The position numbers were made by a program, and so were the translations under genes. The notes under the pieces are model-generated. The model searched no databases and was not told the origin of the DNA. It saw only the letters and a program-made list of their open reading frames with translations. This document shows positions 1 through 34,239 of a stretch of 46,485 nt of DNA, piece after piece. The stretch is from IMG/VR virus record IMGVR_UViG_3300032086_005219, positions 1 through 46,485 of that record, one strand, 5' to 3'. The DNA comes from a virus. Position 1 is the first letter of the stretch. The number at the start of each line of letters is the position of its first letter.

Positions 1-399
1 TTATAAGGCGTACCTAACGACTGCATACCCTGAACCACTTTTTGCATCACAGCCACAGCAAATTTCTCCCCACGAAAATTTTCCAGTTTTATAGCCTAAT
101 TCATATAATAAATTTTCAGTATCCTCAGCTCTGAGTATTTCTTTACTTTCGCTAAACTCACTCCAACTGCCACCATACTTCTCTTGGTTCGAGAGCGATA
201 TATTTAAACTACGAATCTTTTTATTAAAGAAACACAGATTGAAAATTGTAGGTTGACCGCTAATTGTAATGGCTGGAAGTGCATACCAAACATAGCCATT
301 TTTAATATCACGAACATTCACATCAGGAATTGCAGAAACCTCAGATTCCGACAATTCAGAGCTGATAGTGATGCTATTTTTTATATTTAAAGTAAACAT
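1..399 (-). CDS. Hypothetical protein, 132 aa
   Basis: I do not recognise this protein. It is a complete frame: the stop codon is the first three bases of the window and the ATG is at 399. There is no signal peptide or membrane segment. The C-terminal third holds a C-C-G-C cluster (around residues 113-116) followed by a Gly/Ser-rich stretch, which might bind a metal or be structural. It lies outside the prophage remnant and is transcribed leftwards out of the window. A long perfect palindrome lies just upstream (431-456). It could be a host gene or cargo of the decayed prophage. Confidence 0.55.
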   Translation of the reverse strand: MFTLNIKNSITISSELSESEVSAIPDVNVRDIKNGYVWYALPAITISGQPTIFNLCFFNKKIRSLNISLSNQEKYGGSWSEFSESKEILRAEDTENLLYELGYKTGKFSWGEICCGCDAKSGSGYAVVRYAL

Positions 400-430
400 A
401 TCTGCGCAATACCCATTGCCTTATAACACT

Positions 431-456
431 AAGTAGGAAGCACGTGCTTCCTACTT
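431..456. repeat. Perfect 26-bp palindrome
   Basis: AAGTAGGAAGCAC is followed directly by its exact reverse complement. As RNA it would form a strong hairpin, and on the plus strand it is followed by TTTTGTTT, so it could act as a terminator for rightward transcription. It lies 32 bp upstream of the minus-strand gene at 1-399, so an operator role is equally possible. The rest of 400-694 shows no gene. Confidence 0.7.
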
Positions 457-694
457 TTGTTTAATGACCATACTTCCTATCACTGATAATCGTAAACCAG
501 CCCAAAAATAATTGTAACCAATATTCATTAGCTAACATGCTGTCTAATTTGAGCTTTTTCCGTTCATATATCAATGATTGATGTGATTTTTTGGATGTTC
601 GTTTGACAAAGGAAGCATAGAAGATTCCATCTACTGTTTAAAAAAGAAATGAAATAATGCGCAAGCTCTTCGTAACAGCTTTCAACTATTCCAC

Positions 695-880
695 TTACCT
701 CCCCCTACCGAACACTTCTACAATCAGCGGCTTTAAACTCGTTATCGTCCTCTCTCCAAATAAGAACCCAAGAACAAATAAATTAATCACGATTAAAGCG
801 GATTGCTGTTGCTCTGTGTAAGTTGACGCCTTCGTGAACCATTCATAATCAAGATATGTCTTAGCACTGTTAACCCACAA
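695..880 (-). pseudogene. Holin (GTA_holin_3TM type) fragment, C-terminal part
   Basis: The translated end of this frame nearly matches the last 45 or so residues of the intact holin at 30601-31077, sharing for example EWFTKA, TYTEQQQSALIVINL, FLFGERTIT and PLIVEVFGRG. Similarity stops near 856, and upstream codons look unrelated, so the first residues of the open frame are chance sequence. Only the last transmembrane segment is left, so it should not work as a holin. A second broken copy lies at 1786-1990, so this region once held more than one holin end or was rearranged around the 1255 gene. Confidence 0.8.
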
Positions 881-1254
881 CCATATTTAAAAAAAACACA
901 AAAAACATCAACACCCATGGTAAACAATTAAAATATTAACCATATAAAACAAAGTATTAACTTAAGATGAAATCATTCACATGAATTAAGACAGTAAACA
1001 TCGAATGCTAATATCTTTTTCGTTTCGTTTTCCTATAATGACCACAACTTATGCATCCAGTGTCATATCTGGCTATGACTAAAAGTTAGCCACACTAACA
1101 GCATTAAGTGATTCATTACTCCCTCTCCTCCAAATGAGCCAGTACTCATATATAAGGCAAAGGCTGTATTGATTGAAAATCTATTCCATACCTTAATGCT
1201 CAACATTAAGTTTGGTGAATATCTACGTTAACTATTTAATAATTTGAGAACATT

Positions 1255-1626
1255 ATGAAAAATAAAAAAAGCTTTCTTTTCATCGCTTGTATTCTTAGCT
1301 CTTTTATATCAATGCCTTCATTTGCAGAAAGCAAAGTCTGTGTGAACCTTCCCTTTGGTGTAGGTTATTCTGCATCATTTGATGTTGAAACGCTTGATGG
1401 TCATTTTAAAACACAAAACACTTCAAAATTCAATGTTGGAGAAACTCGTTGTATTGATGTCACGCCATTGGAAACGGGTACAGACTACAAAGTTACTCTT
1501 CACCCATTCTGGGGAAAAACTATTGACTGTAGTCCAGTTCTAACAAAAGAGCAGGGTGATAGCCATATTACTTTCCGAGCAACGGGTACTACTTTGAGCC
1601 CACATTGTTCTATGTATGGTATTTAA
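1255..1626 (+). CDS. Small secreted protein, 123 aa, four cysteines after signal peptide
   Basis: I do not recognise the family. The start has a clear Sec signal peptide: a KNKK basic end, a hydrophobic stretch, and a likely cleavage after SFA near residue 24. The mature part is about 99 residues, rich in Thr and aromatic residues, with four well-spaced cysteines (VCV, TRC, IDC, PHC) that suggest two disulfides and a periplasmic or extracellular location. A GAGAA motif lies 6 bases before the ATG, and a hairpin followed by T's comes after the stop (1645-1700), so it is an independent gene. It runs opposite to the broken phage genes around it, typical of a lysogenic-conversion (moron) gene. 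About 375 bp of A+T-rich upstream sequence (881-1254) has no other visible gene and should hold its promoter. Confidence 0.8.
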   Translation: MKNKKSFLFIACILSSFISMPSFAESKVCVNLPFGVGYSASFDVETLDGHFKTQNTSKFNVGETRCIDVTPLETGTDYKVTLHPFWGKTIDCSPVLTKEQGDSHITFRATGTTLSPHCSMYGI

Positions 1627-1644
1627 TTAATCTGGAACTCGGTT

Positions 1645-1700
1645 AAGCCATTGCCATAAGCCTGTCTTTTATAAGTGGGTAATATTGGGCGATGGCTTTT
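1645..1700 (+). terminator. Likely terminator of the 1255-1626 gene
   Basis: AAGCCATTGCC (1645-1655) pairs with GGCGATGGCTT (1688-1698), with one U-G pair and a 32-base loop, and is followed by TTTT. It lies 19 bases after the stop codon. The long loop makes it less certain than a compact hairpin. Confidence 0.5.
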
Positions 1701-1785
1701 CTAATTTGAAATAAGACTATTTAAGTAAAATGACGCAGGATCTTTTCTAGATTGTAGTGGCATAGTTAGCTTGAAGTGGTTCCTC

Positions 1786-1990
1786 CTACCTTCTCTTACC
1801 GAATACTTCTACAATCAGCAGCCTCAAGAATGGCTATCTGCTTTTTCAATTCCATTTCATCTATTTTTCGCTGCAGCTCTGCTTTCTTTTCAGGAGACAT
1901 ATCCGGTGGAAAGTAATCCGTTATCAGGTCCTTGACCGAGCCAAATAATGAACCGCCAACAACATCCGTGATTTTTGTTAATAGGCTCAT
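1786..1990 (-). pseudogene. Holin fragment: N-terminus fused to the gene's extreme 3' end
   Basis: The first 58 residues match the intact holin at 30601-31077 (starting MSLLTKITDVVGG, then DYFPPDMSPEKKAELQRK and IAILEAA). After that the frame jumps into the last 30 or so bases of the same gene, read in another frame, and stops. About 270 bp coding for the transmembrane part are missing. The junction lies at short CAGC-type repeats present in both parent sequences, as expected for a microhomology deletion. The product would have no membrane segments. It still overlaps the amidase remnant start exactly as the intact genes overlap. Confidence 0.85.
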
Positions 1991-2194
1991 ATCCCACCTT
2001 CCAAAAAGTTTTTAATTCCTAAGGCGTACGCTTTAACCAGGTCATCAAATCTTTCTTGTGCTAACTCAAGCGAACTATCACTATCAATAAAGAACGGCTC
2101 TACAATTACACATGGCATTGAGGTTTTCTGAAGGAGTAAGCCCCCACGGTCGCCAGCTTTACCTTTGTAAAATGCTACACAAGGTTTGAGACCA
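1987..2194 (-). pseudogene. N-acetylmuramoyl-L-alanine amidase fragment, C-terminal part
   Basis: From GLKPCVA onward the frame matches the last 70 residues of the intact Amidase_3 gene at 31074-31634, including the catalytic-type Glu in VEPFF. The first two thirds, with both zinc-binding His residues and the first Glu, are gone. An open frame continues upstream to 2220 but those codons do not match the intact gene, so the homology break is near 2194. It should be inactive. Confidence 0.87.
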
Positions 2195-2229
2195 CTCTCT
2201 ACTGTCCAATTTTTCGGCATAGCTCGCGA

Positions 2230-2491
2230 GTCAAAACCGCTACTGACTCAAGAATCCGCATTAACTTCCCTTCAGATAGCCAAGTCGCTTTTGCTTTTAA
2301 TTAGATGACAAAAAACTATAATTTTGATTTGTTAACCATCGAATCATGTCGAATCTGAATTGATAACATGATCAGCATCATATGCATTGATATTTGTAAT
2401 AAATTTTCAGATACATAATGTATTATTTATCGTACATAACGAGCTAAAATAGCAGACAGTAAGCGTTAAGGGGATTAGTGAGGTCTTTTAC
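2230..2491. repeat. 262-bp diverged direct repeat, copy 1 (non-coding block between DnaB and lysis genes)
   Basis: This block aligns along its whole length with 33978-34239, with many point differences but almost no length change. Shared landmarks are AAACCGCTAC, AATCCGCATTAA, TTAATTAGATGACAAAAA and ACATAACGAGCTAAAAT. It carries no gene in either copy. It lies directly between the DnaB and amidase fragments, so the most likely content is a late promoter, terminator or antitermination site for leftward transcription. About 48 bp separate it from the DnaB remnant. Confidence 0.85.
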
Positions 2492-2508
2492 CCTACTAAA
2501 TCGGATAT

Positions 2509-3182
2509 TTAACATAATAGGTATAATGCGCACCACCACCATTTCCTCGCATACTTGGCAGACATTGTTTTTCTTGCCGATGGATTATCGAAAACGACAT
2601 TACAGAGAAAGTCACCAACATACCCGTTGATGAGTTCAAGGTAGGGCGTTCCAGTACCGCCATGTCTGTTGTACCGAACAATGGCTTCCATCAATTCAGG
2701 TGGGTTTGGTGAATCAGCGTGATAAACCGAGTCACGATAAAGACCAATCCAAATATCACAATCTTGCTCAATCTGACCGGTATCTTGTGAGTCAGATGGC
2801 AATGACCTTTTATCTGCACGTTCTTCCAGTTTACGATTAAGCTGGGTAACTAGGAACACAACGCAATTTAACTCCTTGGCCAGCTGCTTGAGTCGTTTGG
2901 TAATATCGCCGTAAGCCAAGTCATTACGCTCGGCCTTCTCGGTAGCTATCAGTGTTAAGTAATCCACCATGATTGCAGCCAGTGGAACTTCACGGTGCAA
3001 CCTGCGCGATTCAGCTTCGATATACGTAATCGTGACGCTGGGTGAATCATCGATATAACATTTGGTATTGTTGTATTCGCTAATTGCCATGCTAGCTTTG
3101 GCAAACTCAGTATCGAAGTTATATACATCTTCGGGGCTCTGATAGAACAAACCTGAATCGATACGGGCTCGAGAAGAAACCA
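2509..3182 (-). pseudogene. DnaB-like replicative helicase fragment, C-terminal half
   Basis: The frame matches the intact helicase (39998-41416) from about residue 265 to its end, including YIEAESRRLHREVP, the Walker B-type IMVDYLTL and TQLNRKLEERADKR. The N-terminal domain and Walker A are missing, so it cannot be a helicase. Homology starts abruptly at 3182. The normal stop codon after KYARK has changed to TGG, so the frame reads on for ten extra residues. The pieces differ from the intact copy by scattered changes, which argues for a related phage rather than a recent duplication. Confidence 0.88.
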
Positions 3183-3597
3183 GTTGCCGGAAAATAGCAA
3201 TGGCACCCGGTCATTCATGGCTAATCACGTCATATCTGTACCTTACCGCCTTACTGCCATCACACTGGATTAACACGATTTATTTAAAACTAAATTTGTT
3301 TTCTTCCCCCTATTTATTTGCGGCTATGCTTAACCACATAAAAATCATGCGTAATAGTGCCAAAAAGCCAGTAAATATAAGGGCTAGCCAGCCATTTGCT
3401 GAACGGCTATAATTCCCGCCTCCAAAGATTGAGGTCAACACATGCACACGAAAGCAACACCAATAAATAGCTATCCAAAGTACTGGGCAGGATGTTGGCA
3501 CTAAAATATTAACCAATTGTTAAACATGGAAAAATCATTATATATCAATAAACTAAAATACACTTTGATAATATTTTTTCCATTTCCAAGCGTTTTT

Positions 3598-3660
3598 TTT
3601 TGCCCCCATTTTGCCCCCAAACACCATTTTTCGATCAGTTTTGCCCCCAGTATGCCCCCA
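3598..3660. repeat. Four TTTTGCCCCCA-type direct repeats, probable integrase arm-binding sites
   Basis: Copies lie at 3598-3608, 3609-3619, 3639-3649 and 3650-3660 (the last starts GTATGCCCCCA). Within each pair the spacing is 11 bp and the pairs are 41 bp apart, so all face the same side of the helix. Helically phased short direct repeats at a prophage end are typical of arm-type sites for tyrosine integrases. Two more copies, also 11 bp apart, sit inside the integrase 3' end (46444-46463). Just upstream, at 3413-3425, ATTCCCGCCTCCA resembles the 3' end of a tRNA or tmRNA gene and might be an older attachment core. Confidence 0.6.
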
Positions 3661-3672
3661 AAATTGAGCTAA
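3601..3672 (+). pseudogene. Possible 3' tail of a lost integrase gene
   Basis: Read on the plus strand, this stretch ends FAPSMPPKLS then stop (3670-3672). The intact integrase ends with ENAPNMPLKTNKLM, encoded by a similarly spaced pair of TGCCCC repeats. Nothing upstream (3240-3600) resembles the integrase core, so only the last codons would survive. Its position at the junction of remnant and intact prophage fits an attachment region. An alternative is that this is simply the attachment arm of the intact prophage itself. Confidence 0.4.
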
Positions 3673-3752
3673 AAAAGAAGCCTTAAAACATCGTTCAAGA
3701 TGCACGTTTTCGTCCACTCGATTATTGCGAATACTGAAAATATTATTGAAAT

Positions 3753-3786
3753 AAAAAAGGGAGATGTATGACTACATCCCCCCTTA
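3753..3786 (-). terminator. Terminator after the outer-membrane protein gene
   Basis: On the minus strand GATGTA-GTCA-TACATC forms a stem extended by GGG/CCC pairs and is followed by TTTTTTA. It lies about 40 bases past the stop of the 3827-4315 gene and would end the whole leftward late transcript at the prophage edge. Confidence 0.75.
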
Positions 3787-3826
3787 TATTTAGTGCTTGA
3801 TGAGCATTACGTTTAAAAAAATATAA

Positions 3827-4315
3827 TTAGAAAATGTAATCCATTGTTAGGTATGCTTCATCATTAAACGATCCACTTTCTTGACTACTTGTATTAAGTA
3901 AACGATACCCAATTTCAGTGCTGATATTCTTGGTTATACGATAATTAAAGCCAGCTTGTCCGCCATATACGTAATGCCCTTTATTATCCAATGCTTTTGT
4001 ATCCTGGTATTTATAACCAACAGTGACACCTGTAACCAAATTGAATCTCTTTGCATCATCTAGGCTATAAAGGTAGTCATATGACCCCATATATTTTGAT
4101 AATTTGCTTTCATTTGAAAAAGTGTATGTTCCTAGAAAACGATGAGATTCATCTGCAATCACACCAGCTCGAAAAATATAAGTTTCGTTACTACTACCAA
4201 GAATATGATTGTTGTCAGCACTTAGGCCAAGACCAACACTGTATTCTAAATCTGAAGCCTGAACTTGAGCAGCTGCTGCTGATAACATAATAAGTACGAT
4301 AGCTGTTTTTTTCAT
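3827..4315 (-). CDS. Outer-membrane beta-barrel protein (Lom/Ail-like position)
   Basis: The 162-aa protein has a signal peptide (MKKTAIVLIMLSAAAAQVQA) cleaved near residue 20. The rest alternates short amphipathic strands with polar turns (YSVGLGLSA, YIFRAGVIA, FNLVTGVTVGYKY, YGGQAGFNYRI, STEIGYRLLN) and ends in phenylalanine, the usual signature of an outer-membrane barrel; about eight strands fit. Lambda and relatives carry lom at the same place beyond the tail fibre genes, where it alters the lysogen surface. The role here (adhesion, serum resistance or blocking superinfection) is inference. It is the last gene of the leftward late block and is followed by a terminator. The 216 bp to the fibre gene and the 130 bp upstream of its ATG are A+T-rich and could hold its own promoter, needed for expression in the lysogen. 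Confidence 0.8.
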   Translation of the reverse strand: MKKTAIVLIMLSAAAAQVQASDLEYSVGLGLSADNNHILGSSNETYIFRAGVIADESHRFLGTYTFSNESKLSKYMGSYDYLYSLDDAKRFNLVTGVTVGYKYQDTKALDNKGHYVYGGQAGFNYRITKNISTEIGYRLLNTSSQESGSFNDEAYLTMDYIF

Positions 4316-4531
4316 AAATCACCCTTAAATAAAACACTGTTTCTTTCGTTGGGGGCAAGATAACAAATGAAGCTGAACGAATGCTGAATATTTGAAAGCG
4401 AAAATGTAAGCATTTATTAATGAAATTATCGTTTAAAAACAGCACTTTAATATCATCATTATAAATTGCGCAATACGCTCATTAATCGTACCGTGATTAT
4501 TGAGAAAGCCTAACTAACACCGTTTCCGTTA

Positions 4532-6736
4532 TTAATCCTTCACCTTGATAAACGTGTACTTCTTAATGTTCGGTGCAATATCAGCGACAGGAATGTTGGG
4601 ATAATTACCACTAGGAAACATCTGCTTTAATCCATAATAAAATGGCGGGATCGTTGAACCATCACATTGGTGATAACGTCCACCAGCAGGCACACCTACC
4701 TGCTGCCCATCTTCGATAACAACCTCAATCAGGCATCCAACCCAGATACCACCAATTTGAGAGGATTGTGGCGGATTAGCTTGTGTGAAAAAGTCATAAG
4801 TATGGCGGCTATCCCTTCTCCATTTTGGAACCAGTTTACTAACCACCTCCATCTGCATGTCTTGATCACCTAATATGAGCTTGCCGTTACTCACAACGAG
4901 GATATAGCTTCGGTTGTATTTAATCCCATGTACACCAAGCTCTAGGTCAGAATCCAGCGCCCCCCCTAGGCTCGCAATACCACCGCCCCCTGATGATGGT
5001 TCTATCCACGTTGAAGACCAGCCCCCCGTAAACTCAAGCAATTCATACACGCCATCAACCGTGTGGTACTCAATCAGGCTCCCATTGGTACTATTAAAGC
5101 CCTTTTTGATTTCCATTAAGCCAACGTAATTGTTACTCGGTAATGTTGGCGCACCGGTAAACTTACCATTGACGTAATAGAGCCCCGCTTTTTTAGTCTT
5201 TGGATCATCGCCAACACTAATAAGCCCACCACCTTCCAACAGCCGTCTTGTCAGTTCATACAACTGAGAGAGTAAAACGAGCGAATCATCTTTTCCATTA
5301 ACCTCAATACTGGGTGCTTCTTTGGCCGCTAAGTGAAGCGACATATCAGCATCACCCACATTAACAGTTTGATCTCCATCTAATGCATGGACACCAAAGA
5401 CTTCTTTTATACCAGTACTGGTTCTATATTGAAGTAATGCCCCACCAGACCCAAACCAGGTAAAGGGGCCTGTCATGGTTCCGCCGTTCGGATCTAGAAA
5501 GTTCAAAGAGGATAAATCAACCGTCTTGTCATCACCGGTTGAGTAGAACTTCGCCGTGACAGCGTCATAATGTATTTCACTGCCATTCTCGACCGTGGCG
5601 TAATCAGTCCCGACTAAATCACCGTCCGTATAGGTAAATTTCAATCCTTTTGGTAACAGTACCCACCAGATGGTTGATAGTACCGGTGTATCTGGATAAG
5701 GCTTTTCAACTGTCGGCGTAAACACTCCACCGTCTTGTATTGCCCCAGCAGCGGCAGATTGTGCACTCACGGCAGCTTTTTCCGCTTTATTTTTCGCGAC
5801 GTCAGTATCTTGCTTCAATGCAATGACAGCTTGACGATCTGCACGCACCGCGACTTTATCTCCGGATACCTGAGAGGCAGCAGCCTGCACATCCACTCCT
5901 ACTTGCGGAATGTTCATCGCATCAATAGCGGTTTTATCGACTGCCATTTGACGAGCAATATCCGCAGCTTTTTGTGCGTAGTGATACGACGAATACTTGC
6001 CAGGCTCTACAGCCACATTTTCAGGGTTTATCGCCCATTTTTTGGCTTTGGGTATTTCAATCGCCAGCGCGGCCAAATCCGGTAGGTTCGTAATCTGTGA
6101 TGCGTCAGGTGGGTTATCTTCTGTGAAGATCTTTACTGCGGCCTCGGTACCTTTAGCATGCCATAAAAATCCTTCCCCAATTAAAAAGGATTCCTGACTA
6201 TTCGGTAGACTGGTGTGGTGAGAAATAACCGTTTTAGTGCCATCTGATGTGAGTGACATTTCCCCCGCGCCCCAAGCGTAAGGTTGGTTAATCACTGCTT
6301 TCTTTATTCCATAAGACTGAACCGCACTCGATCGCTCACTACCAATCATCATCGCGTTATTAGGTAACGCAATATCACCATTAGGGTCGAGGATACTTAA
6401 ACGATGAGTCGGTTTGATATTTGAAATATCAGAGACCAGCTCATAGAGATTCGATTTGTCGACGTTCCTGACTTTGATATTGAGCCGGCTATATTCTTGA
6501 TTGGGTGTGACAATCGTTACCTGGTAAAAGGTCTCGGGAATGGTTTGCAGTTCATTGGGCCATAAGTCGAGTAATGCGATGCCTGCAGCATCGGTATTCT
6601 TAACGATAACTTCAGGAATAATGATCCCATTATAAATGACCACATCATTCAATTGCGCCATCACCGTCGCATTTTCGATGGGGGTTCCATCCGCAGTGGT
6701 TACTGTCGCCTTCACTTCACACGTTGTAATTGCCAT
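4532..6736 (-). CDS. Tail fibre protein, 734 aa
   Basis: The N-terminus (residues 1-100) looks like an Ig-type or carboxypeptidase-regulatory-like fold (TTADGTPIENATVMA, NTDAAGIALLDLWP), as in several phage fibre base domains. Residues around 250-335 are rich in Ala, Lys and Asp (DTDVAKNKAEKAAVSAQSAA) and should form a trimeric coiled coil. After that come beta-rich repeats (GGTMTGPFTWFG, SLHLAAKEAPSIEVNG) and a tip ending RYHQCDGSTIPPFYYGLKQM, similar in style to tail-collar domains. It probably trimerises and binds host surface receptors. It is separated by 39 bp from the adhesin gene upstream in the same leftward operon. No host-range partner such as a chaperone is obvious. Confidence 0.87.
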   Translation of the reverse strand: MAITTCEVKATVTTADGTPIENATVMAQLNDVVIYNGIIIPEVIVKNTDAAGIALLDLWPNELQTIPETFYQVTIVTPNQEYSRLNIKVRNVDKSNLYELVSDISNIKPTHRLSILDPNGDIALPNNAMMIGSERSSAVQSYGIKKAVINQPYAWGAGEMSLTSDGTKTVISHHTSLPNSQESFLIGEGFLWHAKGTEAAVKIFTEDNPPDASQITNLPDLAALAIEIPKAKKWAINPENVAVEPGKYSSYHYAQKAADIARQMAVDKTAIDAMNIPQVGVDVQAAASQVSGDKVAVRADRQAVIALKQDTDVAKNKAEKAAVSAQSAAAGAIQDGGVFTPTVEKPYPDTPVLSTIWWVLLPKGLKFTYTDGDLVGTDYATVENGSEIHYDAVTAKFYSTGDDKTVDLSSLNFLDPNGGTMTGPFTWFGSGGALLQYRTSTGIKEVFGVHALDGDQTVNVGDADMSLHLAAKEAPSIEVNGKDDSLVLLSQLYELTRRLLEGGGLISVGDDPKTKKAGLYYVNGKFTGAPTLPSNNYVGLMEIKKGFNSTNGSLIEYHTVDGVYELLEFTGGWSSTWIEPSSGGGGIASLGGALDSDLELGVHGIKYNRSYILVVSNGKLILGDQDMQMEVVSKLVPKWRRDSRHTYDFFTQANPPQSSQIGGIWVGCLIEVVIEDGQQVGVPAGGRYHQCDGSTIPPFYYGLKQMFPSGNYPNIPVADIAPNIKKYTFIKVKD

Positions 6737-18659: not shown

Positions 18660-19922
18660 TTAAGTGGCTGAGTTTTGGTAGTACTTCACAGCCCCACCCA
18701 CATCGATTAATGCACCATCAGCACGTTGATAACCAATAAAGCCTGTTTGTGCTTTTTCGGTGTACTTACTATCAGTCATGCGGAACAAGCGAAGATCCAT
18801 CACTAAACGGATACGGTATTTATTCAGCGCACCAAACAGAATGGATTTAGCGTCTGCAGCCATTTCTGCCATGTGTTGATTGACGGTGATCGGGCGATTC
18901 AAAATACGGTCAGGCGCACCACCAGGGTTCCCCGTTTCATAGCCAGGTACGAAGATAGGACGGTCATTTTTGTCTTTGATAACACGCAGAGCTTCAAGGG
19001 TCGTATCATGGAACATATAACCGACACCCGGTGAATTGCGGTAAGCGGGATCCACACTGTGTTCAAGAGATACAAGATCTTCATAGGTAACAAGTGCGGT
19101 TTGACCCGTTTTCCCCTTCTTACCCAGTGCTGCCCCAGTAACAATACCTGCAGGCTGATTTGTACCGGTTCCCACCGTGAAGTGACGATTGGTGATACGA
19201 CCTATACGCATACCCAGTAAATCTTGGATATAACCGTCAATATCAAAAAAACTGTCTTGCAGCAGTTCCCAAGGAATGGCAATGGACTTTGATGAGTACA
19301 TATATGAGCCGATAGATTTATTGCCAAAGGTGGTATCTTTGGTACCGGCAGGTGCATTTTGACCAACAATTTCACCTTCCTCTGACGTCGCATCGGTTGT
19401 CGGGAAATTGATCGTGTTACCCGTAGCTGTACGCATCACCGTCGATACGCTATACATACCGCCATACGCTTTCATCGCTTGTTCAACCTGACGGATCCAT
19501 TCCGGTGCGGTGGTATATCCCCCTTCAGTAGGTACCGTGGTGCTCATGGCATTATTGATATCCGAAGGGCTACGCGCCGTCATTAACTGATACTGCTCAG
19601 GTGTCAGGGCACTGATCCCACCCAGCATGTAAGCACGCATCGCGGCTGCCACATCTGACTGTTTATTGGGTTCTTTGGTATGTTTGTCACGCAAGGTGTT
19701 ATTCACACCGCCGTCATCGACATCGTTTTCCAACGCTAAATCAGCAACCTGCTGTTCACGGCGAATATCCCCATCAATCGCTTGGATGTCAGCCAAAATG
19801 CTATCCAGCTTTTGCCCATCTTCCGCACTCATGCGTTTGTCTGCAGGGTATTTATCATTTAGTGCATTAGCTTCTTTCGCTAATTTGTCGCGCGACTCGC
19901 GCAATGCTTTCAGCTTGGACAT
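18660..19922 (-). CDS. Major capsid protein, HK97 fold
   Basis: The 420-aa protein has two parts. Residues 1-105 or so form a charged coiled-coil delta domain (LKALRESRDKLAKEANALND, DIQAIDGDIRREQQVADLAL) that acts as built-in scaffold and is cut away by the protease gene just upstream. The rest is the HK97 fold: TTVPTEGGYTTAPEWIRQVE, TINFPTTDATSEEGEIVGQN, the long spine segment, WELLQDSFFDIDGYIQDLLG, TGTNQPAGIV and RLVMDLRLFRMTDSKY. Length and plan match the Phage_capsid family. It lies 13 bp after the protease gene, with a strong AGGAGGG motif before the ATG, fitting high expression. Confidence 0.95.
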   Translation of the reverse strand: MSKLKALRESRDKLAKEANALNDKYPADKRMSAEDGQKLDSILADIQAIDGDIRREQQVADLALENDVDDGGVNNTLRDKHTKEPNKQSDVAAAMRAYMLGGISALTPEQYQLMTARSPSDINNAMSTTVPTEGGYTTAPEWIRQVEQAMKAYGGMYSVSTVMRTATGNTINFPTTDATSEEGEIVGQNAPAGTKDTTFGNKSIGSYMYSSKSIAIPWELLQDSFFDIDGYIQDLLGMRIGRITNRHFTVGTGTNQPAGIVTGAALGKKGKTGQTALVTYEDLVSLEHSVDPAYRNSPGVGYMFHDTTLEALRVIKDKNDRPIFVPGYETGNPGGAPDRILNRPITVNQHMAEMAADAKSILFGALNKYRIRLVMDLRLFRMTDSKYTEKAQTGFIGYQRADGALIDVGGAVKYYQNSAT

Positions 19923-25228: not shown

Positions 25229-26194
25229 CTATTTTATTGTAATCTTCGGCCCGATGTAACATATAGCCATAGTTTTAGAATCTGCGCTAATAGGAAACTC
25301 AAAATGAATACGGTAATATCTGCTTGAAATCTTTGCATGCCAAGGACAAAATATCTTATTTTTTTTATTCCTAGGATCTTTGAAAGTCATTTCATCTTTA
25401 AATTTACCCTTGTTAGTTTTTGATTCATCTGTTATTTTCGCTCCATCACCTAAAAAATATTCCTTTAAAATATCATGACCTTCTTTTGTATATTCGCCAT
25501 TGTCATTTCGACTATCCACAAGATCATTTAATATTTTCATTATGTTAATAACCTGAGAACAAATAACCAAGCTAAATGGATGAGGACTTAAAAAATTTAT
25601 AATATCATCACTAATAGATAAACTAGGGTATATTTCATTTATCGTGTCAATCATACACTGCCAAGATTTTGGCATACCTCTCTTAGACTCAATATCTAAA
25701 ACAAGATTATCAACATCCCAAAAATTATCAATTTGATAAGCAATAACTTCAAGCTCATTTGTAATCTGATTAACAATCAAACGAGTTGTATTACATGGCC
25801 AATCAGGAGTTTCCAAACTATATAATGCAGAGTAATTGCCTAATATTTTCTGTCTAACAGCTTCTCCTGCACCTAGATTAGTCACAACTTTATCAAACAG
25901 TTCAAAGTCATCATTTTCAATATTTTGACGTATATCATCTAAGAAAGGACCTTTTTTATCAATCCATTCAAGCACTAATTTTTTAAGCACAGGATCACGT
26001 TGAGCATTAACAACATCTCGAACAGTTAAGTCATCAACTACTTTTAAAGATGGTAACAACCTAGAACAATAAAGTTTATCTTTAACTGCAGCATTTTGAC
26101 TTCTTAATTTTAATAGACCCTTTAGGTGATACAAAAAAGAATCTTGATTATCAAATTGTCCCGTAAATGATAACTCATTTATAAACCATGCCAT
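25229..26194 (-). CDS. Unknown protein of the methyltransferase/DUF262/AAA cassette, 321 aa
   Basis: I do not recognise a named domain. The first 200 residues are helical and polar. The C-terminal 60 residues stand out: CPWHAKISSRYYRIHFEFPI, then a closing AICYIGPKITIK. A W-H-x-K ... R-I-H-F ... Y-x-G-P-K-I-T layout looks like a compact catalytic or RNA/DNA-binding module with conserved His, Lys and Arg. Its position, five bases after the AAA ATPase stop, suggests that the ATPase and this protein act together, with this one as the possible effector. A+T-rich codon use sets it apart from the phage structural genes. It is the last gene of the operon. Confidence 0.78.
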   Translation of the reverse strand: MAWFINELSFTGQFDNQDSFLYHLKGLLKLRSQNAAVKDKLYCSRLLPSLKVVDDLTVRDVVNAQRDPVLKKLVLEWIDKKGPFLDDIRQNIENDDFELFDKVVTNLGAGEAVRQKILGNYSALYSLETPDWPCNTTRLIVNQITNELEVIAYQIDNFWDVDNLVLDIESKRGMPKSWQCMIDTINEIYPSLSISDDIINFLSPHPFSLVICSQVINIMKILNDLVDSRNDNGEYTKEGHDILKEYFLGDGAKITDESKTNKGKFKDEMTFKDPRNKKNKIFCPWHAKISSRYYRIHFEFPISADSKTMAICYIGPKITIK

Positions 26195-26199
26195 TTATA

Positions 26200-27339
26200 T
26201 TACCATCCAACTAATTCTGACATATCTTTCTCTGCTTGATCAAAAAAACCTTCTGGCCATTCACTTAAGTTGCCATTTTCATCTACAAACGGAGATATTA
26301 TATCTGAGTGTGTAGAGTTAAAAAAATGTATACTTATTTCTTTTCGATCAATCAATGTTCGATACACTGCTAACCGAATGCCATTGAGCATATGATCACT
26401 ATGTGTTTCTATTATAATTTGAACTCCAGCACTACTCATAATAGATAAAAATTCACCCATTTTTGATTGTCCTTGAGGATGCAAATGGGCTTCAGGGCTA
26501 TCAATAATGATTATATCTCCAGGTTTAGCTAATAGCGCTGAAACTACTATAGGAAAAGCATAAGATAATCCATAACCAATATTACTCGGGGTTCTCCACT
26601 CACTAACTTTATTATTTCTAAACATAAGTTTAACAAAATTAGTATTATCTATGGATAATGTGTCAGCCTCTGCATTAGGGAAAATATCACCAAACCAAGC
26701 ATTAAATTGACGTCTAAAATTAGAAGCCACTTCATCAGGGTGCATTTTATCTTGATGCACCATATCATCTTTGAATACTTCAAAAAGCCAAGGAGCAAAT
26801 TCTCCTTTAGTACCTACATGATGGCTAGTACTACTGTCTGAAATTGGATACAAACTATCTAACTCTAGTCGTGATATTCCCAAATAATCAATATTAGAAA
26901 TTGACTTATATAATAAATTAGGAGAGTCTAATTGTGATAACTTTGAAAATAGTTGAGAAGTACTAAAAAAATCCTCTTTATTATCGCCAGTCTCAACAGT
27001 CAGGCTTTTTATATCAATAGTACGATCTGAATTTCTATTATCTAAGCCTAGTGCCAATTTTATACAGGCTGACTCATCCTCAACATCTATTCTTATGATA
27101 TTTGTATCAGAATCCTCATTTAGAACATCACCAGGAGTCCCTAAACGGATCGATTTTCCATTTAGAGTCACTTTACCATCAGGTCTATTTTCTCTGAAAT
27201 TTTGAGAAAGTAATAACAAAGACTGTAAAGTCGATGTTTTTCCTGATGCATTAAAACCTGTCAATGCTGTCAAGTTTGAAAATGGCAGGCTTAATTTTTT
27301 GAAACATTTAAAATTTTCTAGTTCTAATCTTTTAATCAT
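26200..27339 (-). CDS. AAA/ABC-type ATPase, DUF3696-like
   Basis: The 379-aa protein is an ABC/SMC-like ATPase of the OLD-related kind. Walker A is GFNASGKT (28-35), the signature-like SNIGYGLSYAFPIV lies at 252-265, Walker B IIIIDSPEAHLHP at 276-287 and the H-loop-type ETHSDHMLNGIR at 311-322. The end WPEGFFDQAEKDMSELV is the pattern of DUF3696. No Toprim nuclease domain is attached, unlike Gabija GajA. Such stand-alone ATPases are common in anti-phage operons, where they sense or control an effector. It overlaps the DUF262 gene by 4 bp and is followed after 5 bp by the unknown protein. Confidence 0.87.
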   Translation of the reverse strand: MIKRLELENFKCFKKLSLPFSNLTALTGFNASGKTSTLQSLLLLSQNFRENRPDGKVTLNGKSIRLGTPGDVLNEDSDTNIIRIDVEDESACIKLALGLDNRNSDRTIDIKSLTVETGDNKEDFFSTSQLFSKLSQLDSPNLLYKSISNIDYLGISRLELDSLYPISDSSTSHHVGTKGEFAPWLFEVFKDDMVHQDKMHPDEVASNFRRQFNAWFGDIFPNAEADTLSIDNTNFVKLMFRNNKVSEWRTPSNIGYGLSYAFPIVVSALLAKPGDIIIIDSPEAHLHPQGQSKMGEFLSIMSSAGVQIIIETHSDHMLNGIRLAVYRTLIDRKEISIHFFNSTHSDIISPFVDENGNLSEWPEGFFDQAEKDMSELVGW

Positions 27340-28955
27340 CTAAATTTATCCAAACATTCTAAAATTTTAGAAAATCGTACTATGACTTTTTTTCTACTAT
27401 TTGTACCTATAGAAATAGAATCGATAAAATCTTCATCAAAAAGAAGACCTTCCAAACTGTTTTTTAATTCTTGTTTATCTATAGCGTTCAAATTAACAGT
27501 AGATAAAGCAAAGCTAAAGACATCAAATAATGAAATATTGATTACTGATCGCGCAGTATTATTTCCCGCACCAAATAAAGACTTTCTAAATGCATGCCCA
27601 GAAAAAAGTTCATAATTACTTTCCATTGCCAAGATAAACTTATTTTCAAGAATTTCTATATTATCATTACTCATCTCATTTATGGCTTTTAAAGCTCGAG
27701 CTAGAAAGTCATCCATATCACCTTTATAAGACCTATACTCAAATAGAGAAAATGCTAAAAATCTATTAATAATTTCTCTATCTCTCATAGTCTTAGTTTC
27801 TAAGCTGCCTCCTGTAGCCACTTTAAATATTTTAAGTTCAGATAGTCTCTTGACCAACTGTGTTCCTCTTCCATTATATAGACAATTTCTCATCTGCTGA
27901 CGAGTTAATGGAGTCCCCCCGTTAACACGGTCAAAAATATCCAATTTAGCTCTTTCTGGTGCTTTTTCATCTAAGATATATAATATCAGCTGCGTATCTT
28001 CTATCCTTTCTTGGAGCTTTATAGGTAGTTCACTAAATTTTTTTCCATTTAAACTAAGCCCTTTTAAGGAAAATTCATCATTTAAATATCGAGTAAAAGT
28101 GGTTAACCTTTGTAAACCATCAACAACAACAATCTTACCTTCTTGATCCTCTGCAACATAAAATACAGGCAAAGGAATACGCATTAGACAAGACTCTATT
28201 AATTTGGACTGCATAATTGGCGTCCATACAAAATCTCGTTGGAAATCTGGGTCCAATTTAAAACGATTATTTTTTATTCGTTCTACTACGTTATTAACAG
28301 TTCGTTGTTCTGTTCTTATTAAGACAGTGTTTAACGGGTACTCATCCCCCCAGCCAAAACTATGAGCCATTTCCTCACTTTCAGTTTCATACCCTTCTAA
28401 TTCATCACCTTCAGATTCAATTAAGCTTAATAAATCATTAGCATTACGAGCTAAATCAAGTCTAAAGCCTCGATACAACGTGTTAACAGCATTAATCAGA
28501 GACTGCGTATCTTGTTTATTGTCACCTTTAACATACTGAATAGCATTGTTTCTCGAACTTTGGAGACCAATTACAGGGTACTGGCTAAACTCTCTATAAA
28601 ATTTAGGGGTAATCTCTAAAAAGTCACTTGAATTCAAACTACTTGGGAAAATACTTAAAATTTCTATCTCAATCGTTGCTTCAGACTGAAAACTAAACCT
28701 TCCTGAAATAGATATAACTTTGCCTAATGCTCGAATACCTTTTTTCCAACTAGTAGGTATTCCTTTGCTATTATCAGAACCAAGATATATAAAACAATAA
28801 ACCACTTCCTTATCATATTTGTCGACAATAGCCTGCTCTACTTGGCAACATTTAAAGATAAGTTTCTTCGGTTTAGATATAGCACCGACGTAAGTATCAA
28901 GCATTTTTATGTCAACTACACTGTCTTTACCCAATCTAATAACAACAAAGTTCAT
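27336..28955 (-). CDS. DUF262 (ParB/Srx-like) protein with extra N-terminal domain, 539 aa
   Basis: Residues about 220-390 form a DUF262 domain: FKLDPDFQRDFVWTPIMQSK, then VVVDGLQRLTTFTRYL with the DGxQR nucleotide-binding motif at 279-283, and IFDRVNGGTPLTRQQMRNCL. DUF262 occurs in GmrSD/BrxU-type enzymes that restrict modified DNA and in SspE. The DUF1524 HNH nuclease that normally follows is absent; the C-terminal 150 residues are helical and unrecognised. The first 190 residues form another unrecognised domain rich in beta segments. It lies 14 bp after the methyltransferase, so it may read the methylation state made by its neighbour, which is inference. Confidence 0.87.
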   Translation of the reverse strand: MNFVVIRLGKDSVVDIKMLDTYVGAISKPKKLIFKCCQVEQAIVDKYDKEVVYCFIYLGSDNSKGIPTSWKKGIRALGKVISISGRFSFQSEATIEIEILSIFPSSLNSSDFLEITPKFYREFSQYPVIGLQSSRNNAIQYVKGDNKQDTQSLINAVNTLYRGFRLDLARNANDLLSLIESEGDELEGYETESEEMAHSFGWGDEYPLNTVLIRTEQRTVNNVVERIKNNRFKLDPDFQRDFVWTPIMQSKLIESCLMRIPLPVFYVAEDQEGKIVVVDGLQRLTTFTRYLNDEFSLKGLSLNGKKFSELPIKLQERIEDTQLILYILDEKAPERAKLDIFDRVNGGTPLTRQQMRNCLYNGRGTQLVKRLSELKIFKVATGGSLETKTMRDREIINRFLAFSLFEYRSYKGDMDDFLARALKAINEMSNDNIEILENKFILAMESNYELFSGHAFRKSLFGAGNNTARSVINISLFDVFSFALSTVNLNAIDKQELKNSLEGLLFDEDFIDSISIGTNSRKKVIVRFSKILECLDKFR

Positions 28956-28969
28956 ATGTAATCCTAATA

Positions 28970-30256
28970 TTATGCTACTTTCTTACGCTGAGCTAAAACG
29001 ACTAGCGCTTCATAAAGTGGGCCAAATAACTTTCTATTTTGACTCTTTACTCTTCGCAATATCCCTTCTGCTGCATTAGCACTAATGAAATACTTCTCAT
29101 TAATGTCCAAATTTTTATCAATAACATCAATAAGTTTAGAATGAATAATCTCTTGAGGGTACTCAGTTGCTTTAAAATCAATACAAACATTGTTGAATGC
29201 AAGACCGCCAGACATCCATTTCAACTTATGAGATTTATCTTCAGGATCCAAAACAAGGTCAAGTAGTTCTTGCTCTCTAAGGCTTTGTAGTACTGAACCA
29301 TATTCCTCTTTAATCTTTCCTATCATTTCATTTTCGGAAAAGTAGCTATTATCTACTCGAAGTAACTCACCTTTCAATCGCTTAGCTATCCAGGCGACAA
29401 CAGGGACAGAAACCGCATTTCCTAATGCATGATATCTATCAGTATCAAAATCGTTAGTAGAATGATTTTCAGTAACAGTCCAATTAGTAGGGAAACCTTG
29501 AATGCCTTCACATTCTAACGGTGTCAGTCTCCTTACTGCGTTTGGATATGAAACATAAGTACGACTCCAGTCAGTCCCAGTATGTCGACCAGATGTTGCA
29601 GCTAAACAATAAGCTATCTGTGCAACTTTGACATTAGAAGTTTGACACTCACTAACATCAAGAAAAGAACGTCTTAAATTCTTTGGCTTAGTCCCAACAT
29701 TTTTCTCATACAACGTAGAAAAAGCCTTTAATGGGTCACCTTTAAACGCACAGATGAAAACTCGAGGTCTTGATTGAGGAGCTCCAAAAAAACGACTATT
29801 TACTACTCTCCAAGAAACTGCATAACCAATACTCGTCAACTTCTCAAGAATAACCCTAAAATCTTGGCCGTTATGTGAACTTAATAATCCAACTACATTT
29901 TCAATTATTAAAACTTGAGGTCTATGGGCATCAATCAAATCAAAAAAAGGATAGAAAAGACCTGAATTACGGCCACGTAATCCATCCCGCCCCTTTGAAC
30001 CTCTAGCAACGGATACATCCTGACATGGAAAACCTCCACACCATATTTGTGCCTTAGGAATGTCACCTGCATTTAAGCTAGTTATATCGTCACATAAAGG
30101 AACATCGGGCCAATGTTTTTTTAGAACTCGTTGGCAGAAGCTATTCACCTCACACTGAAATTTCGGGTTAAACCCTTGTTTCTCTAACGCTAAATCAAAT
30201 CCACCGATACCAGCAAAAAAAGAATTGAAGTTAAGAGCAGAAACCTTCTGTACCAT
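28970..30256 (-). CDS. C5-cytosine DNA methyltransferase with C-terminal extension
   Basis: All key m5C methyltransferase motifs are present: motif I NSFFAGIGGFDLA, motif IV GGFPCQDVS with the catalytic Cys near residue 78, motif VI ENVVGL, motif VIII QSRPRVFICAF, and motif X YHALGNAVSVPVVAWI. The target recognition region between VIII and X is short. About 120 residues after motif X (from YFSENEMIG on) are not part of the usual fold and may dock a partner. I prefer the ATG at 30256, ten codons before motif I; an in-frame ATG at 30331 would add 25 hydrophobic residues. It is the first gene of the four-gene A+T-rich operon and should protect host DNA or mark it. Confidence 0.93.
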   Translation of the reverse strand: MVQKVSALNFNSFFAGIGGFDLALEKQGFNPKFQCEVNSFCQRVLKKHWPDVPLCDDITSLNAGDIPKAQIWCGGFPCQDVSVARGSKGRDGLRGRNSGLFYPFFDLIDAHRPQVLIIENVVGLLSSHNGQDFRVILEKLTSIGYAVSWRVVNSRFFGAPQSRPRVFICAFKGDPLKAFSTLYEKNVGTKPKNLRRSFLDVSECQTSNVKVAQIAYCLAATSGRHTGTDWSRTYVSYPNAVRRLTPLECEGIQGFPTNWTVTENHSTNDFDTDRYHALGNAVSVPVVAWIAKRLKGELLRVDNSYFSENEMIGKIKEEYGSVLQSLREQELLDLVLDPEDKSHKLKWMSGGLAFNNVCIDFKATEYPQEIIHSKLIDVIDKNLDINEKYFISANAAEGILRRVKSQNRKLFGPLYEALVVLAQRKKVA

Positions 30257-30600
30257 TCGAACACAACCACAAGTTAAAGAGATAAAAGCGATCTGGAAGT
30301 ATACTTGGTAATCGAGAGAATAGAAACTCATTGACTATAATGTCCCCAATCCTTAACACCAACTCCCCCTAGAAACCAGTGTTGTCCCTGCTTACAAGAT
30401 TTCATCAATACATAATCGCCAATAGTTAAAGATCAGAATCTGTAAAGAAAAATTAAAGAATCACCACCTTTCTGGTTATAATTCAAACCTAGATTTAGTA
30501 CATCTTATTTATTCTGTCATGCTCAAGGAATAATTAGCTAAATTCCACTAATAAAATAAAAAATGATAATTATAAAAGCAAATTTTGATGAAATTTATCC
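30257..30600. other. Intergenic region between holin and methyltransferase genes
   Basis: No gene seen. The sequence is very A+T-rich and lies just after the lysis block, so it should hold the promoter of the methyltransferase operon. TTGAATTATAACC-like elements on the minus strand near 30472-30488 are possible promoter parts, not certain. Nothing palindromic with a T-run was found. Confidence 0.35.
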
Positions 30601-31077
30601 TCACTTTCCCCTACCGAATACCTCCACAATCAGCGGCTTTAAATTGGTTATCGTTCTCTCTCCAAATAAGAAGCCAAGAACCAACAAATTAATAACGATT
30701 AAAGCTGATTGCTGTTGTTCAGTGTATGTAGGAGCCTTCGTGAACCATTCAAAATCAATGTACATAACAAAAAATCCCCACATAGGACGCTGAAGACCAC
30801 GTAGAAAAAGGACTATCCGCCCAACGATTGGCAATTGCTTTAAATCACTTGCCGTTCCCTCTTGCTCAGCGATACGTTGGTTAAGCGTTTTCTCAGCATC
30901 CGCAGCAGCTTCAAGAATGGCTATCTGCTTCTTAAATTCCATTTCATCAATTTTTCGCTGTAACTCTGCTTTCTTTTCAGGGGACATATCCGGTGGGAAG
31001 TAATCTGTTATCAGCTCTTTTACTGAACCAAATAATGAACCGCCAACAACATCCGTGATTTTTGTTAAGAGGCTCAT
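30601..31077 (-). CDS. Holin, GTA_holin_3TM family
   Basis: The 158-aa protein begins with amphipathic helices (LLTKITDVVGGSLFGSVKEL, MSPEKKAELQRKIDEMEFKK) and has two or three membrane segments in the second half: FLRGLQRPMWGFFVMYI, ALIVINLLVLGFLFG and the end helix LKPLIVEVFG. This is the layout of the three-TM holins first noted in gene transfer agents. It opens the inner membrane for the amidase, whose gene overlaps its start by 4 bp. Broken pieces of a near relative lie at 695-880 and 1786-1990. Confidence 0.87.
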   Translation of the reverse strand: MSLLTKITDVVGGSLFGSVKELITDYFPPDMSPEKKAELQRKIDEMEFKKQIAILEAAADAEKTLNQRIAEQEGTASDLKQLPIVGRIVLFLRGLQRPMWGFFVMYIDFEWFTKAPTYTEQQQSALIVINLLVLGFLFGERTITNLKPLIVEVFGRGK

Positions 31078-31634
31078 ATCTCATCTCCCAAAAAGCTTTT
31101 GATTCCTAAAGCGTATGCTGTAGCTAGGTCATCAAACCTTTCTTGTGCTAGCTCAAGCGAACTATCGCTATCAATGAAGAACGGCTCAACAATCACACAT
31201 GGCATTAAGGTTTTCTGAAGGAGTAAGCCCCCACGGTCACCAGCTTTGCCTTTATAAGATGCTACGCAAGGTTTGAGACCACGATCTTTTAAGCCAAGGC
31301 ATTGAACTACTTCTTTCTGTATTGCTGAGGCAAGAAGAATGCCTTTCACACTATCTTTATAGTAAAGCGTCTCTGAGCCATTCGATTTATCATTAAAGGC
31401 ATTACAGTGGAAGGATACCGCGATGTCTGCACCCGTTTGATTCACCTTCTTGGGCAGTTTTGAATAAGAACAATCACGATAAATAATAATCGGATCGAAT
31501 TCATACAGCATCAGCTTTTCAGCAACACAATGAGCAAGCGGCCCATTAAATTGAAATTCATTGATACCGTGAGTTCTATTTGCTGCTCCGCCACTTTTCG
31601 CTGAGTGGCCAATAATTAAAGCAATAGCCTTCAT
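31074..31634 (-). CDS. Endolysin, N-acetylmuramoyl-L-alanine amidase (Amidase_3)
   Basis: The 186-aa protein has the Amidase_3 zinc site: His10 (IIGHSA), Glu26 (INEFQFN), His76 (SFHCNAF) and the catalytic Glu150 (VIVEPFF). Other landmarks are GSETLYY and GLKPCVASYKGKAGDRGGL. It cuts the bond between muramic acid and the stem peptide. I place the start at the ATG at 31634 since GGAG lies 6 bases upstream. There is no signal peptide, so it depends on the holin to reach the wall. A C-terminal copy lies at 1987-2194. Confidence 0.93.
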   Translation of the reverse strand: MKAIALIIGHSAKSGGAANRTHGINEFQFNGPLAHCVAEKLMLYEFDPIIIYRDCSYSKLPKKVNQTGADIAVSFHCNAFNDKSNGSETLYYKDSVKGILLASAIQKEVVQCLGLKDRGLKPCVASYKGKAGDRGGLLLQKTLMPCVIVEPFFIDSDSSLELAQERFDDLATAYALGIKSFLGDEI

Positions 31635-31675
31635 TACATGCTCCAAAGTTCATGAGATTAATTCATGCCCTAGCT

Positions 31676-31927
31676 TTATGGTTTAGAGGCATGGTTATAG
31701 AGCCATTCGGCCTTCTCCCTGGATACAGCGGTATCAATTTCAATCTTATGCAGTGTTGTTGCGATGTCTTTAGTGTTTAACTCAAGCTGGTGGATGTGCT
31801 CAGCATTAACTTTAATCTGACGGCTGTTCTCTCCATCATGAAATGATGAATATGACACGCTACCAAGAAGTGCTACACCAGCGCTGATGGCCCCGACTAA
31901 AACGGTTACTCCTGCATGAATAGTCAT
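31676..31927 (-). CDS. Small membrane protein with coiled coil (XhlA-like), 83 aa
   Basis: A hydrophobic N-terminal segment (VTVLVGAISAGVALLGSV) is followed by a charged heptad-like part (INVN-type VNAEHIHQLELNTKDIATTL, HKIEIDTAVSREKAEWLYNH). The layout, one membrane helix next to a coiled coil, resembles XhlA and other holin-associated proteins, though the order is inverted compared with XhlA. It is 41 bp upstream of the amidase in the same direction, so a role in lysis is likely. It might be an antiholin or spanin-like protein; no lipobox is present. Confidence 0.72.
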   Translation of the reverse strand: MTIHAGVTVLVGAISAGVALLGSVSYSSFHDGENSRQIKVNAEHIHQLELNTKDIATTLHKIEIDTAVSREKAEWLYNHASKP

Positions 31928-32087
31928 GATCTACCCCTGTATGTATACACAGTAAAAATAACAGCAAAGATAAATCACTACAAGAAGGTGACTGTGGTTT
32001 TGTGGAAAGCTTTTAATCATTTTTGAAAATTAGGCGGGCATTAATCAAAGGAGAAAGCTCACCTATAATTAGCGGAATTAGACTTGA

Positions 32088-32282
32088 TTACTTAATGCAT
32101 TGCTCAATAATCTGGGCAATGATAATTTGATTGTTTTTGATGTGGTTAATGTACGTACCAATGGTTTCAACATCGACGTAATCTATAAGCAACCCCTCAA
32201 GTACCAATATCTCCAACACTTCTAGCATTGCTACTGATGAACTAAGCATCTCATCAACATTTCTTATGTTATGTTCCGGCAT
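32088..32282 (-). CDS. Small hypothetical protein, 64 aa
   Basis: The start at 32282 is chosen over one further upstream because GGAGAGG lies 7 bases before it. The protein is acidic and helical (VDEMLSSSVAMLEVLEILVL, then IGTYINHIKNNQIIIAQIIE) with no membrane span strong enough to be certain. It is the first gene of the leftward lysis group. Function unknown; similar small helical proteins in this place can be late regulators, but nothing here shows DNA binding. Confidence 0.65.
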   Translation of the reverse strand: MPEHNIRNVDEMLSSSVAMLEVLEILVLEGLLIDYVDVETIGTYINHIKNNQIIIAQIIEQCIK

Positions 32283-32456
32283 GATGCAGCCTCTCCATAA
32301 TATTAAACGTTGTTTGATTATGCTTAACAAAACAATTAGAGCCACCAGCACTGATTGTTTTCGTCATATTTAATGACTATGGCGCGCTTTAAAAACGCTT
32401 TAGAGTGTATTTGGCTTAAAGCGATCGCGATGACTTTAAACCATATATCGACAGAA

Positions 32457-32484
32457 GCAAGTTAGGACATTTGATCTAACTTGC
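32457..32484. repeat. Inverted repeat in the divergent region before the SIR2 gene
   Basis: GCAAGTTAG (32457-32465) and CTAACTTGC (32476-32484) are perfect 9-bp arms around a 10-base spacer. It lies in the 383-bp region between the leftward small gene and the rightward SIR2 gene, 180 bp before the SIR2 start. It may be an operator or, as RNA, a hairpin. TTGCTATATATTGATAAAAT (32592-32611) downstream could be a promoter -10 region for the SIR2 gene. Confidence 0.55.
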
Positions 32485-32665
32485 GTATCTGGGATTAGAC
32501 AAATTACTTGAAACCTTAAACGCTTATTATGTTTTCTAACTATTAAACTTTCCTGTTGCATAACTAAATATCAACATCTTACTACCAATTATTGCTATAT
32601 ATTGATAAAATGCGGCAGAACGCCATAAAGTTGGCAATTAAGATAGACAATAACGTATCCAAACT

Positions 32666-33694: not shown

Positions 33695-33800
33695 AGTAAC
33701 AAACAAGCGTAAGCTTGAAGCAATGCGTAAGTTGTCGCAAGCTTGTAATGCTGCTATTAAAGCTGGTAAAGCAAAGAAAACCATCCTTGCTCCGCAATAA
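33675..33800 (+). CDS. Small basic protein overlapping the SIR2 gene end, 41 aa
   Basis: The frame MRSKKNEVTNKRKLEAMRKL... runs 41 codons to TAA at 33798-33800. It starts 20 bp before the SIR2 stop, in another frame, with GAAGGA 7 bases upstream of the ATG. Twelve of 41 residues are Lys or Arg, and residues 9-35 should make one basic helix. A terminator follows 24 bases later, so the two genes form a compact unit. It could bind nucleic acid or neutralise/regulate the SIR2 protein; its function is unknown. It is too short to be certain without expression data. Confidence 0.62.
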   Translation: MRSKKNEVTNKRKLEAMRKLSQACNAAIKAGKAKKTILAPQ

Positions 33801-33823
33801 GCTACTACCTTTATCTGATTCAG

Positions 33824-33850
33824 AAAGCCGACCATTGAGTCGGTTTTTTT
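33824..33850 (+). terminator. Rho-independent terminator of the SIR2 unit
   Basis: AAAGCCGAC-CATTGA-GTCGGTTT forms a stem with five GC-rich pairs extended by A-T pairs, followed by a run of seven T's. It lies 24 bases after the small basic ORF. Confidence 0.9.
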
Positions 33851-33977
33851 GTGCCTAGAAACATAATAGCTAATTCCAATAGTCAAGGTTCATGACATAA
33901 CTAGTAATAGTATTTACTCAAGAAAATTCCATGCACATTGCGTCAGTTACGCCTTAGTCAGCAGCTGCTGAATTGGG

Positions 33978-34239
33978 GTCGAAACCGCTACAGACTCAAA
34001 AATCCGCATTAACCGCCCTTCAGACAGCCAAGTTGCTTTTGCTCTTAATTAGATGACAAAAACTATAATTTTAATTTATTTACCCTAAAATCATGACGAG
34101 TATGAATTAAGAACATGATTAACATCATACGAACTGATATCAGCGGTGAATTTTCAGGCATGTTTTGTATTACTTCCCATACATAACGAGCTAAAATGAC
34201 AGTCAGTAAGCATTAAAGTGCTTAGTGTGGTGTTTTACG
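33978..34239. repeat. 262-bp diverged direct repeat, copy 2 (conserved non-coding block)
   Basis: The counterpart of 2230-2491, equal in length and clearly similar throughout. There is no gene in it. Here it lies between the SIR2 terminator and the HEPN operon. In the decayed copy it is flanked directly by DnaB and amidase. Conservation between two diverged phages suggests a function, most likely late gene control. Confidence 0.85.

Follow-up and report, generated by a model that had tools for sequence, protein, structure and literature searches.

Remains of related prophages beside an intact prophage at the 5' end of ygiQ in Photobacterium: probable repeated integration of Rac-like phages at a single site

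The Rac prophage of Escherichia coli is integrated by IntR in the 5' end of ttcA, whose N-terminus is thereby replaced (PMC4632033), and in dusA-associated genomic islands and prophages island-supplied sequence replaces the 5' end of dusA (PMC4482086). In Shiga-toxin E. coli, several tandem prophages, some of them degraded, occupy one locus (PMC8112680). For genomic island Chr1.8 of strain SS9, with integrase PBPRA1336, the available part of the report gives the coordinates 1,482,130-1,528,980, leaves the integration site unspecified, calls the island absent from 3TCK and DSJ4 and makes no mention of relics (PMC1239915).

The locus described here lies in a stretch of viral DNA of 46,485 nucleotides (the window), in which an intact prophage adjoins the remains of older ones. 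As with Rac, integration hits a conserved housekeeping gene in its 5' coding end, the host N-terminus is altered and the native 5' end is displaced to the far side (PMC4632033). In E. coli, a relative of the window integrase (42%) has its end immediately before ttcA, with a similar TGCCCC pair after it. Unlike Rac, the target is ygiQ, several related relics lie at one locus, and phage-type starts of ygiQ persist in species without an adjacent intact integrase. The dusA islands differ in integrase family and target gene, and serial relics are not described for dusA in the available part of that source (PMC4482086); the Shiga-toxin E. coli arrays differ in hosts and sites, and many of them are prophage-in-prophage insertions (PMC8112680). 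The literature searched contained no paper joining ygiQ, a prophage and an integration site. Since 5'-end integration (Rac, dusA) and tandem degraded prophages (E. coli) are already known, the phenomenon is not new in kind, and the Photobacterium ygiQ locus is a well-documented example of it.

Most of the window is an intact prophage, and the record ends at the stop codon of its integrase:

3491-46485, no strand assigned: intact siphovirus-like prophage with terminase, portal, major head protein, tape measure, tail fibre J, excisionase and integrase
30601-31646, minus strand: lysis-module gene and endolysin, counterparts of relic blocks 1 and 2
33978-34240, plus strand: copy of the dispersed element
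39998-41416, minus strand: intact dnaB
44981-45238, plus strand: excisionase
45211-46485, plus strand: tyrosine integrase, with a TGCCCC pair (46446/46457) in its 3' end

The integrase, at the prophage end, has Arm-DNA-bind_2 (N-terminal arm-binding) and Phage_integrase domains. A relative of it in Vibrio also precedes ygiQ, and others lie at the 5' ends of genes that we take to be ettA, ttcA and a ybdL-like gene. The prophage also carries an accessory block at 25229-30331, encoding a C5 cytosine methylase, a GmrSD-type restriction protein, an AAA/DUF3696 ATPase and an unknown protein, which is possibly a defence or restriction system, and a Sir2-like protein (32666-33694), whose family match is weak and whose gene is divergent from the lysis genes.

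The attachment core could be placed by comparison with relatives. An integrase search yielded Photobacterium profundum ATCC BAA-1252 (G001) and P. indicum ATCC 19614 (G002), whose integrases are nearly identical, and a genus search added the further relatives G035 and G016. In G001, G002 and G035 the integrase stop is followed by ATGAATTTAATGAAGATAAACGAATAC-CCTAAATACTGGGCAG and then by a long open frame, that of YgiQ, which belongs to the radical-SAM family. At ygiQ, the prophage of G035 overlaps the coordinates given for Chr1.8 and is probably the same prophage, so that G035 is probably strain SS9 (PMC1239915). The features at the junction are:

3364-3490, plus strand: native promoter of the host ygiQ with the first codons of the gene (ATG at 3442), severed from ygiQ by the intact prophage; identity to the region upstream of ygiQ is 81-91% in 11 genomes and 91% in G016
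3481-3490, plus strand: left attachment core, TACTGGGCAG, found at both prophage ends in G001, G002 and G035 and once in G016
3601-3658, no strand assigned: two TGCCCC pairs, predicted integrase arm sites

The core is set at 3481-3490, inside the first codons of ygiQ, because the prophage-bearing relatives share TACTGGGCAG at both ends, at attL and attR in the 5' end of the host gene, and G016, without an intact prophage at the site, reads uninterrupted across the same core with the native MHTKATPINSYPKYWAECYG. Positions 3475-3490 of the window read CCAAAGTACTGGGCAG and are the left copy; the window's own right end is beyond the record, and by comparison with G001 the right core copy should lie about 40 bp past it. 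In the relatives the phage-supplied 5' coding end, MNLMKINEYPKYW, replaces MHTKATPINSYPKYW, showing at the sequence level that the phage gives ygiQ a new start. An exact-pattern scan for the core with the phage left end returned only G001, G002 and G035 within the genus and no match among viral contigs.

The original prediction had put the shared attachment site at 3.6-3.75 kb, which proved to be the left end of the intact phage itself. Part of this region, 3601-3672, resembles the integrase 3' end because both carry TGCCCC pairs 11 bp apart (3601/3612 and 3642/3653, and a third pair at 46446/46457), and we considered it as an integrase 3' end relic; it was rejected, as in G001, G002 and G035 the stretch is found on the right side of the core, where it forms the left end of the intact prophage. 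The pairs are better read as predicted arm-type sites of the integrase, present on both arms. Similar closely spaced CCCC motifs occur at or just past the integrase end in several distant relatives.

Left of the native promoter, comparison of window positions 1-5000 with the entire window, which includes the proposed comparison of 1-3700 with 30000-46485, revealed four strong blocks on one strand that keep the order and orientation of positions 30600-40641 of the intact prophage, with 81-91% identity and E values of 1e-43 to 0. Block 1 (694-852, matching 30600-30758 at 87%) belongs to a lysis-module gene beside the endolysin, block 2 (1816-2200, matching 30903-31287 at 90%) to the endolysin, block 3 (2230-2491, matching 33978-34238 at 81%) to a non-coding element, and block 4 (2533-3182, matching 39992-40641 at 91%) to the C-terminal part of dnaB. 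Five colinear segments had been claimed: four are borne out, and the fifth, at 3.60-3.67 kb, is not a relic. Three of the four consist of phage genes, whereas block 3 is a dispersed promoter-like repeat whose place in the order says little about phage colinearity and gives no independent support. The claimed span of 695-3672 likewise holds in part: the blocks reach 3182 and 3601-3672 belongs to the intact phage, and the relic probably starts further left than 695, because 424-682 matches (83%) the SS9-like prophage of G035 just left of its lysis genes. The region is made up as follows:

424-852, minus strand: relic; stretch left of the lysis module (424-682, 83% to the G035 prophage) and 3' end of a 158-aa lysis-module gene (87% to 30600-30758)
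853-1750, no strand assigned: DNA without a match inside the relic, with a single open frame (1255-1626, plus strand)
1751-2200, minus strand: relic; second lysis-gene 3' end, joined to the 5' part of the lysis gene and the 3' part of the endolysin, from the block matches
2189-2535, plus strand: copy of the dispersed promoter-like element
2533-3182, minus strand: relic; C-terminal part of dnaB, frame open, DnaB_C domain, 91% to 39992-40641, dN/dS 0.05

Two lysis-gene 3' ends are thus present, at 689-746 and at about 1751-1838 (matching 30569-30652 at 70%, range 70-78%), and the 898 bp that separate them, 853-1750, match nothing in any of the relatives' loci compared. The duplicate 3' end and the unmatched DNA suggest that more than one relic, likely two, is joined in the 424-3182 region. 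The original picture of a single decayed sister in tandem is right about a related phage in the same orientation; the relics are probably more than one, and a native ygiQ promoter intervenes. At the left edge of the relic, 431-456 form a perfect 26-bp palindrome, probably a terminator. Two open frames of the relic, 1-399 and 1255-1626, the latter with a signal-peptide-like start, match no family, and the loci searched contain no relative of either.

The ygiQ locus of related genomes holds either one or two relics with an intact prophage or relics only. In G002 the old prophage is longer (locus positions 26065-36181) and is followed by the intact one; its blocks stand in the same order as in the window. 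In G001 two dnaB relics follow one another, separated by P'-arm and left-end pieces, and the intact prophage comes next; G016 has only relics, between the left host gene and an uninterrupted ygiQ. Comparison of relatives that differ in prophage content, also proposed with the original prediction, thus gave both states. At the extreme left of the relics in G001 and G002, a phage left end is joined to a 36-bp piece of the ygiQ promoter (97%), which supports a position of the older phage, too, in ygiQ; G035 has part of the ygiQ upstream region in that position. The relic side has left-end DNA homologous to the intact phage's own; in G001 it includes part of the TGCCCC arm, of which G016 keeps a trace. 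The cores of the older prophage have been deleted, and the promoter piece and the phage left end are what the relatives keep. At 94% identity, the left ends of the relics in G001 and G002 look orthologous; the dnaB relics of these two genomes are 80-94% identical by segment, mostly below the 97% of the hosts' ygiQ, and strictly vertical inheritance of one relic was rejected on this ground. In G002, near 274.1 kb (L151, about 19050-19210), the left ygiQ promoter piece has an insert of ~160 bp that is absent in G001; it has short inverted ends, TACCATCC/GGAGTGGTA, and is possibly a small transposable element.

From the observed homology and order of the blocks, the core, the replaced ygiQ start and the relic series in sister genomes, we read 424-3182 as what is left of one, more likely two, prophages that belonged to the family of the intact one and lay in the 5' end of ygiQ, with the intact phage integrated later at the core (probability roughly 0.85), that is, a series of integrations of Rac-like phages at one site. 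Earlier prophages of the family would have inserted in the 5' end of the host ygiQ, and deletions would then have shrunk them, sparing lysis genes, the promoter-like element and dnaB and removing structural genes, regulators and the integrase. The intact phage would next have integrated at the core, 3481-3490, immediately right of the relics, its integrase probably binding the TGCCCC arm sites that flank the core, and its right end would now provide the start codon and N-terminus of ygiQ. The window's own relic presumably used the ygiQ core as well, its left edge falling beyond the window.

How did a native ygiQ promoter (3364-3490) come to lie between the relics and the intact prophage? Its presence there argues against plain tandem integration, because the old phage's own ygiQ start would be expected at this place, and judging from the left pieces in G001, G002 and G035 the old prophage is flanked on both sides by native ygiQ upstream sequence. 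The simplest proposal, which we put forward tentatively, is that an empty-site allele, supplied by a sister chromosome or a donor, recombined with the locus and took the place of the right half of the old prophage. Alternatively, the right end of the older phages could have included a long copy of the ygiQ promoter and start; the promoter right of the relics would then be phage-borne, and integration alone would account for a promoter on both sides of them. We think this rather unlikely: all phage-type ygiQ starts that were read are short and stand behind an integrase end or its trace, and the promoter copy is 95-99% alike among G001, G002, G016 and G035, as expected of host DNA. Unequal recombination between the dnaB genes of relic and newcomer, which would repeatedly turn newcomers into relics and restore the native promoter and attachment site, would explain why the relic dnaB ends near its start codon beside the ygiQ upstream region in several genomes. 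It predicts a mosaic dnaB with an N-terminus common to the relics, but no clear mosaic was seen in the dnaB N-terminus at this resolution, at which such a sign of relic-newcomer recombination is unsupported, and the junctions vary between genomes; we hold it to be distinctly unlikely. The position of the relics left of the native promoter would also suit an older phage that integrated elsewhere, upstream of the ygiQ promoter, and shared only modules with the intact phage. The junction of a ygiQ promoter piece with a phage left end at the extreme left of the relics in G001 and G002, and the homologous left-end DNA with its arm sequence in G001 and G016, make this improbable.

The relic dnaB bears on the nature of the older phage. 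Over 213 codons it differs from the intact dnaB by 45 synonymous and 10 non-synonymous changes (dS 0.41, dN 0.02) and contains 0 stop codons. With a dN/dS of 0.05 and no stops, its source was a separate functional phage, and purifying selection acted on dnaB before its loss; the gene was broken by deletion, recently in mutational terms. The dN/dS is 0.012-0.050 among intact copies and 0.049-0.077 for pairs with the window relic, so that only a slight relaxation of selection is visible; in the old dnaB of G002, by contrast, the alignment shows three in-frame stops. The claim that a related phage used the same site, and that this is no recent duplication, is upheld by the dN/dS and by sister genomes with the same arrangement, but the many substitutions taken as a sign of decay are mostly synonymous and arose while both phages were functional. 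That the relic is instead a partial copy of the intact prophage that has decayed, as the colinear blocks in one orientation might suggest, is highly improbable: the substitution pattern rules it out unless the divergence arose under selection, which is impossible for a relic, and in dnaB the relic shares more identity with the intact prophages of G001 (93.4%) and G035 (92.4%) than with the one next to it (91.4%).

The non-coding third block was followed with a sequence-only model in 52 Photobacterium and 150 family genomes. The element is ~300 bp long and has 29 copies in four P. profundum-clade genomes (7-8 per genome), with one weak hit elsewhere. A same-strand ORF of at least 100 aa starts within ~220 nt of 22 of the 29 copies, compared with 7 in the mirrored test and ~10% at random points. 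The conserved part contains palindromic stretches and ends in ACATAACGAGCTAAAAT, which looks like a putative promoter -10 region; neither a significant Rfam match nor a match in phage or plasmid collections was found. Copies lie in tailed prophages, near filamentous-phage secretin-like genes and on chromosomes, usually just upstream of accessory genes. Some of these match antiphage families, and they include genes for KwaA, a DUF2971 protein, a PifA-like KAP ATPase and a ThsB-like TIR protein accompanied by a caspase-domain protein; behind many of the remaining copies the gene has no match to a defence family. It is conceivable, though doubtful, that the element is a clade-specific promoter cassette of ~300 bp, mobile or repeatedly acquired with accessory genes, several of them antiphage, under one shared regulator. 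It is a separate lead on the regulation or exchange of prophage cargo.

Beyond these relatives, the genus search found a phage-type ygiQ start in 21 of 51 Photobacterium genomes, the matches beginning inside the phage-type 5' end, and all 17 of the 21 that were read directly have the short phage-type start. Among the genomes examined with 1.5 kb upstream, a full integrase of the same kind is present only in G001, G002 and G035, with fragments in two others; in several of the remaining genomes the usual upstream genes are nearby and a native ygiQ promoter was not found. The phage-supplied start therefore appears to outlast the prophage. The native-type start is found in 9 of 10 other family genomes sampled, and phage relics beside a native ygiQ were absent from 11 other Photobacterium genomes. 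Hence, ygiQ is a marker of past lysogeny across Photobacterium, and the locus is a readable history of repeated integration, in relics, in an intact prophage and, in other species, in nothing but a phage-supplied ygiQ start. It lets one ask whether expression of ygiQ is altered by the phage-supplied start and what makes native promoters reappear next to relics.
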